Origin: Patescibacteria group bacterium
GTDB taxonomy: Bacteria > Patescibacteriota > Saccharimonadia > Saccharimonadales > UBA4665
Length of the DNA stretch: 48,495 nt
Assembly (NCBI GenBank): GCA_030272735.1
Contig: JARXKL010000005.1
Span: 12,462-60,956, forward strand
Reading direction: 5' to 3'
The notes under the pieces were generated by a model that saw nothing but the letters and a program-made list of their open reading frames with translations, was not told the origin of the DNA and ran no database searches. The position numbers and the translations under genes are program-made. Positions 47,165 to 47,677 of the stretch are shown here, piece by piece; positions within the stretch are counted from its first letter, which is position 1, and each line of letters starts with the position of its first letter.

Positions 47165-47201
47165 AACAGATACGATAAGCATAGCCACTATTCCACTTGT
47201 G

Positions 47202-47210
47202 TGGTATAAT
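47202..47210 (+). promoter_or_regulatory. Extended -10 promoter of tmRNA
   Basis: TGG directly followed by TATAAT forms an extended -10. No good -35 is visible. Transcription would start near 47217, about 25 nt before the mature tmRNA 5' end. Confidence 0.7.
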
Positions 47211-47241: not shown

Positions 47242-47643
47242 GGGGCTGAATTTTAAGCTCGACGTTGGACTTTATCGGTTAGATCAGCAGGTCGCTTGTC
47301 AGCGTATAGACAAACTATATAGATGCAAAAACACCTATTAGCGAACTTTCAAAGTCATTCGTAGACAGCCTCAAAACTGCCTTCGTTGGCCGCGAACTCG
47401 CACCAGCTTACGCCTAAAAATGTAAGCAACGGCGTACGATGACTCCGGATGGTCGTGCACGTTTTATATCCTCTGGATGCTCGCGTCAAATTGTCCGCTT
47501 GCTGCGCTAAGACCAGGATTGCTCGCTTGAGATGTTTGTTTGTTTAAATACTCATGCGCTAAGACAGCAAAACAAACTATGCCTGTAGACGACTAACCAA
47601 GATAAACTAGCGGACGCGGGGGCAGTACCCGCCAGCTCCTCCA
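47242..47643 (+). ncRNA. ssrA: Transfer-messenger RNA (tmRNA)
   Basis: One-piece tmRNA of 402 nt that rescues stalled ribosomes. The acceptor GGGGCTG pairs with CAGCTCC and keeps the alanine identity pair G3-U70. The tRNA-like 3' part GCGGACGCGGG...CCCGCCAGCTCC matches the E. coli type except that the T-loop reads GGCAGTA instead of UUCAACU, and the discriminator is U before CCA. The tag frame opens at GCA 47325 after a TAGAT context, begins AKTPISELSK, ends GRELAPAYA and stops at TAA 47415, about 30 residues. The end departs from the usual ALAA. Confidence 0.92.
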
Positions 47644-47651
47644 GTAAAAAC

Positions 47652-47677
47652 GCATCAGCCAACGCTGGTGCTTTTTT
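47652..47677 (+). terminator. tmRNA terminator
   Basis: An 8-bp stem GCATCAGC/GCTGGTGC with a 4-nt loop is followed by T6, 8 nt after the tmRNA CCA end. GTAAAAA follows CCA here, as at tRNA-Lys and tRNA-Glu. Confidence 0.88.

Follow-up and report, generated by a model that had tools for sequence, protein, structure and literature searches.

The contacts G18-Ψ55 and U54-A58 are regarded as near-invariant in tRNA structure; TruB makes pseudouridine 55, and TrmA/TrmFO make m5U54. The tmRNA has no D-stem, and its elbow is bound by SmpB (PMC3968760). According to Burks et al. (2005; PMC1168896), a G stands in place of U342 in the Caulobacter tmRNA and GG occurs in that of the Reclinomonas mitochondrion; the passages on these cases make no mention of a D-loop partner of G55. 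In UGNRA loops, which have the same closing pair, an outside A is commonly bound via the loop G to give a composite GNRA fold (PMC2258182), and eukaryotic AGC tRNA-Ala combines an A54-A58 purine-purine pair with a purine at position 60 and an extra D-loop base (PMC7566577). Here, we describe a tmRNA gene of a Patescibacteria genome (0.84 Mb, 24 contigs, 92.8% complete) in which the T-loop and the D-loop both depart from the tRNA pattern.

The window tmRNA gene

The window is the whole 48,495-nucleotide stretch of DNA that was analysed. A tmRNA had been proposed at 47242-47643 in the initial annotation, and this was borne out by a full-length match to RF00023 on the plus strand (model positions 1-374, 49.3 bits, E 5.9e-18). 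The gathering score of RF00023 is 47 bits, so the gene barely exceeds the cut-off, and an ARAGORN run did not report it. The parts of the gene and its flanks are as follows.

47182..47210, + strand: promoter-like TAGCCA-17-TATAAT with extended -10 TG (consensus scan, 10/12 matches)
47242..47643, + strand: one-piece tmRNA gene (ssrA) (RF00023, 49.3 bits, full length; gene also in relatives)
47242..47248, + strand: acceptor stem 5' strand GGGGCTG (7/7 pairs with 47633-47639, G3-U70 kept)
47249..47260, + strand: D-loop AATTTTAAGCTC, with A18 at 47256 and G19 at 47257 (N18 covaries with T-loop position 55, 152/163)
47325..47417, + strand: tag reading frame, 30 codons AKTPISELSKSFVDSLKTAFVGRELAPAYA plus TAA (by translation; relatives' tags 16-35 codons)
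47616..47620, + strand: T-stem 5' strand GCGGG (5/5 pairs with 47628-47632)
47621..47627, + strand: T-loop GGCAGTA, i.e., G54 G55 C56 A57 G58 T59 A60 (direct reading; class common to relatives)
47628..47632, + strand: T-stem 3' strand CCCGC (direct reading)
47633..47643, + strand: acceptor 3' strand CAGCTCC, discriminator U73 (47640) and CCA (direct reading)
47652..47677, + strand: intrinsic terminator-like hairpin with a T run (consensus scan)

The acceptor stem with G3-U70, the encoded 3' CCA, the internal tag frame (47325-47417), which opens with an alanine resume codon and closes with a stop, and an SmpB partner in the same genome agree with RF00023. The T-loop (GGCAGTA rather than UUCRANN) and the D-loop (AG rather than GG) do not, but this is no bar to membership because alphaproteobacterial tmRNAs also do without them; the trait is typical, not universal. 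The permuted arrangement of RF01849, in which the 3' piece precedes the 5' piece, was not found; a single 402-base gene holds both the 5' acceptor and the CCA end in the usual order. A18 and G19 of the D-loop are positions G13 and G14 in E. coli tmRNA. Judged by these features, the window gene is a real, functional-looking one-piece tmRNA. The extended -10 (TGG-TATAAT at 47205-47210) lies 5' of the gene; chance would be expected to yield one promoter-like site in the scanned stretch, and the promoter and terminator patterns by themselves are no more than chance expectation in a stretch this long.

Elbow covariation in Patescibacteria tmRNAs

The initial annotation called the T-loop aberrant, as direct reading agrees, and pointed to Patescibacteria relatives as the context, which proved apt: dozens of Saccharibacteria, from independent assemblies, have this gene with a T-loop of the same class. 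Among tmRNAs from 47 genomes of the same order, GGCAGTA and GGCGGTA were the commonest T-loops, and TGCAATN, TGCGATT, AGCATTA, CGCAATN and GGTAGTR were also present. A local sequence error, to be suspected if relatives had canonical T-loops, fails as an explanation, as theirs are non-canonical.

We parsed 165 Patescibacteria tmRNAs (57 Saccharimonadia and 108 others), 163 of which have a 7-nt T-loop. The parsing rule was blind to the T-loop: counting back from the conserved D-loop GAC, a G at a distance of 4, 3 or 5 bases was taken as N19, and the base preceding it as N18. Positions 18 and 55 were in a matched state in 152/163 tmRNAs, with G18/U55 in 73 and A18/G55 in 79, and A18/U55 was seen twice and G18/G55 never. 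A18 is present in 79 of the 85 sequences having G55, as a candidate partner of that base. The 11 tmRNAs in neither matched state comprise the two A18-U55 cases, five with U18 and others with C at 18 or 55; four of the five U18 sequences read AUG, perhaps representing A18 and a bulged U. Outside Saccharimonadia, G18-U55 (73) and A18-G55 (29) are both common, and the 18/55 pattern therefore does more than mark a clade. Among GTDB families, 48 are purely G18-U55, 32 are purely A18-G55, and one (f52) has both matched states.

Positions 54 and 58 of the same 163 loops were U-A in 119, G-G in 38, C-A in 3, A-U in 2 and U-C in 1. Position 57 was a purine in all of them and C56 was found in 153. A purine at position 60 accompanied 37/38 G54-G58 loops compared with 9/119 U54-A58 loops, and D-loops were longer in tmRNAs with G54-G58 T-loops. 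Where U56 occurred, the D-loop had G19, or an A19 reachable by a one-base shift as judged by eye.

Several tmRNAs showed further peculiarities. Four (L188, L277, L305 and L316) have the T-loop UUUAACU with the D-loop GGATTTTGAC or GGATTTCGAC, in which an A19-U56 pair formed by the one-base shift is a possible further compensated elbow contact. The T-stem is apparently 6 bp instead of 5 (GCGGAG/CTCCGC) in 8/165, including L018, L019, L021, L024 and L029, which would make the acceptor/T-arm stack one pair longer. The tmRNA gene of genome G033 contains an extra stretch of 163 bases located before the tag (L340:1079-1241), flanked by a 13-base inverted repeat (GAGACCTACCTTA ... TAAGGTAGGTCTC).

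The number of times the switch arose was estimated from trees; those built from tmRNA alone are weak, and Fisher p values take the sequences as unrelated. The best tmRNA tree implied 20 changes at position 55 and 18 at position 18; 54G and 58G required 14 apiece and changed together in 6/6 well-supported contrasts (p 0.031). With SmpB and tmRNA concatenated (74 genomes), the tree needed 11 changes at position 55, 5 of them forced by supported branches alone, and both A18-U55 cases nest inside Saccharimonadia as returns of U55. Supported contrasts for positions 18 and 55 were 2 in the same direction, 0 opposite and 1 without change on the tmRNA tree, too few for significance alone, and 3, 0 and 2, respectively, on the SmpB and tmRNA tree, not significant alone.

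A DNA pattern covering the T-arm alone, with the D-loop excluded, was also scanned over GTDB genomes. Among the matches listed, hits came from Saccharibacteria and Alphaproteobacteria, and A18 was present in 46/46 of the listed alphaproteobacterial two-piece tmRNAs with GGCRGT T-loops. The same swap in Alphaproteobacteria is apparently convergent and independent of that in Patescibacteria.

Gene finders recover these tmRNAs unevenly. ARAGORN reported 66/76 U55 tmRNAs, 29/43 with U54-G55 and 0/38 with G54-G55. A clade model made from the 3' 75 bases of 24 same-order tmRNAs detected a tmRNA 3' end in 9/17 further genomes without a confident full-length Rfam hit. Given what ARAGORN and Rfam miss, claims that tmRNA is absent from these bacteria need care.

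Discriminator, tag and partner proteins

The initial annotation also drew attention to U instead of A as the discriminator, and U73 was confirmed by direct reading and recurs in the clade, in 8/57 Saccharimonadia versus 0/108 other Patescibacteria tmRNAs; the tmRNA tree implies about six changes at this position. AlaRS is present in the genome, and the sole tRNA-Ala found (GGC) keeps A73 with the same G3-U70 acceptor, so nothing points to an altered identity rule. U73 likely reflects tolerance and perhaps entails weaker charging. Pairing of G-1 with U73 was considered and rejected, as position -1 is G in the window gene but C or T in other U73 genes.

A matching change in SmpB was one of the checks proposed in the initial annotation. 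SmpB is encoded in the genome (G000:C7:43834-44253, E 1e-39), and in an alignment of 74 sequences (19 non-saccharibacterial G55, 24 saccharibacterial G55 and 31 U55) no residue tracked the T-loop type. The highest-ranking column is distinct in G55 sequences from outside the Saccharibacteria but not in Saccharimonadia, and clade effects therefore dominate; co-change was rejected.

The tag had been described as atypical, and it is indeed long (30 codons) and ends in APAYA, yet both features are ordinary for the clade. The tags of 44 Saccharimonadia span 16-35 codons (median 26), their last residue is A in 32 and V in 10, and their ends include ALAA (5), PALA (5) and PAYA (3), among others. The further suggestion that the protease receptors reading the tag may differ gained some support. 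Across 60 Saccharimonadia genomes (the source genome and 59 relatives), no member of the ClpX zinc-domain family was found, while ClpP was present in 18/21 Saccharimonadia genomes and in the source genome. A motif scan covering 838 kb of the 841 kb of the latter revealed FtsH above its cut-off, two ClpB/ClpA-like proteins below theirs, and no ClpX- or Lon-like motif. The tag is thus probably read by a partner other than ClpX.

A probable alternative elbow, its rivals and known systems

We consider it quite probable that the window gene encodes a functional one-piece Saccharibacteria tmRNA with an elbow built on alternative, self-consistent tertiary contacts. The swap looks like an alternative way of building the tRNA corner, not a damaged gene. 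U54-A58 would be replaced by G54-G58 in a trans Watson-Crick/Hoogsteen purine-purine pair, a geometry that we infer, and the covariation among U-A, G-G and A-U at 54-58 fits such a closing pair. G18-U55 would be replaced by A18-G55, with G55, C56, R57 and the inserted A18 forming a composite GNRA-like turn, as in UGNRA lonepair triloops. A18 would occupy the gap that G18 occupies in tRNA, and the T-loop would still dock to the D-loop. G19 would remain paired to C56, which fits the composite turn because the second GNRA base stays free for pairing. Alanylation via G3-U70, SmpB binding and tagging would then proceed as in other tmRNAs, and m5U54 and pseudouridine-55 modifications would be impossible on the window tmRNA. 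The initial annotation had U54, U55 and A58 as lost; the bases are absent, but their functions seem to have been swapped to G54/G58 and to G55 with A18, with G19-C56 and R57 kept.

Outright loss of the elbow contact is unlikely. The T-loop would drift because SmpB takes the place of the D-stem/anticodon arm and keeps the tRNA-like domain together, leaving the conserved bases unneeded, in line with SmpB binding at the elbow of an RNA without a D-stem (PMC3968760) and with the variable T-loop letters within Saccharimonadia. However, free drift would not yield 152/163 tmRNAs in two matched states with zero G18/G55, nor does it fit the full retention of R57, the near-full retention of C56 or the link to R60, and the covariation already disfavours it.

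Slightly less likely still is a change driven by loss or respecification of the T-loop modification enzymes (TruB, TrmA/TrmFO), by which an unmodified U55 would be free to become G55. TruB is missing in about one third of Patescibacteria and, outside Saccharimonadia, was found in 13/30 G55 genomes versus 51/73 (p 0.015, ignoring relatedness). Nevertheless, the window genome and nearly all searched Saccharimonadia have TruB yet carry G55, the tRNAs of the source genome retain U54 and U55 (UUCRANN in 34/35 checked), and A18 is left unexplained; as a driver, TruB loss is unsupported in Saccharimonadia. A pseudogene or assembly error is scarcely credible: a Rfam score slightly above the cut-off and the ARAGORN miss speak for it, but the fully paired stems, G3-U70, CCA, a tag frame that stays open, the presence of SmpB in the genome and a T-loop class common to independent assemblies of relatives have already refuted it.

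A separate observation concerns tRNA-Gly(GCC) of the source genome (L239:1498-1574, minus strand), which has the T-loop TTAGAGT (A56) and the D-loop ..AGTTGTTTAG... The two loops fit a U19-A56 contact replacing G19-C56, which would be the second elbow contact to be re-keyed in the same genome.

Beyond the alternative elbow of the window gene, we lean modestly toward the view that tRNA-like elbows carry a second, evolvable code, in which A18-G55, either alone or together with G54-G58, can replace the near-universal G18-U55/U54-A58 set as a block via a composite GNRA-like T-loop, and that tmRNA has undergone this exchange repeatedly within Patescibacteria and, in a separate event, in Alphaproteobacteria. 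A natural, repeated and compensated exchange would mean that the elbow can be keyed another way, and it hints that freedom from tRNA modification enzymes, with no U54/U55 to modify, is tolerated. The exchange is directly testable via double mutants in E. coli tmRNA.

The G55 T-loop is already known from Caulobacter and Reclinomonas. In the literature on Saccharibacteria/Patescibacteria tmRNA, we found no title or abstract describing a covarying D-loop partner or the spread in Patescibacteria. The window gene resembles the bacterial one-piece tmRNA (RF00023) in length, in having G3-U70 and CCA in its acceptor, in its tag frame and in its SmpB partner. It differs in its T-loop (GGCAGTA, against UUCRANN), its D-loop (AG, against GG) and its discriminator (U73, against A73). 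It shares the GGCRGT T-loop and D-loop AG with the alphaproteobacterial two-piece tmRNA (RF01849), whose genes have a permuted order and are split in two, whereas the window gene is in one piece and from another phylum. Many relatives, with U54 G55 C56 R57 A58 and an outside A18, fall into the UGNRA sequence class (type R1) of the lonepair triloop/T-loop motif of the TPP riboswitch and rRNA (PMC2258182); here, the class lies inside a tRNA-like elbow and occurs also with putative G54-G58 closure. Finally, eukaryotic AGC tRNA-Ala (PMC7566577) shares the purine-purine 54-58 combination, the purine at 60 and the longer D-loop, with A-A where the bacterial tmRNA has G-G.
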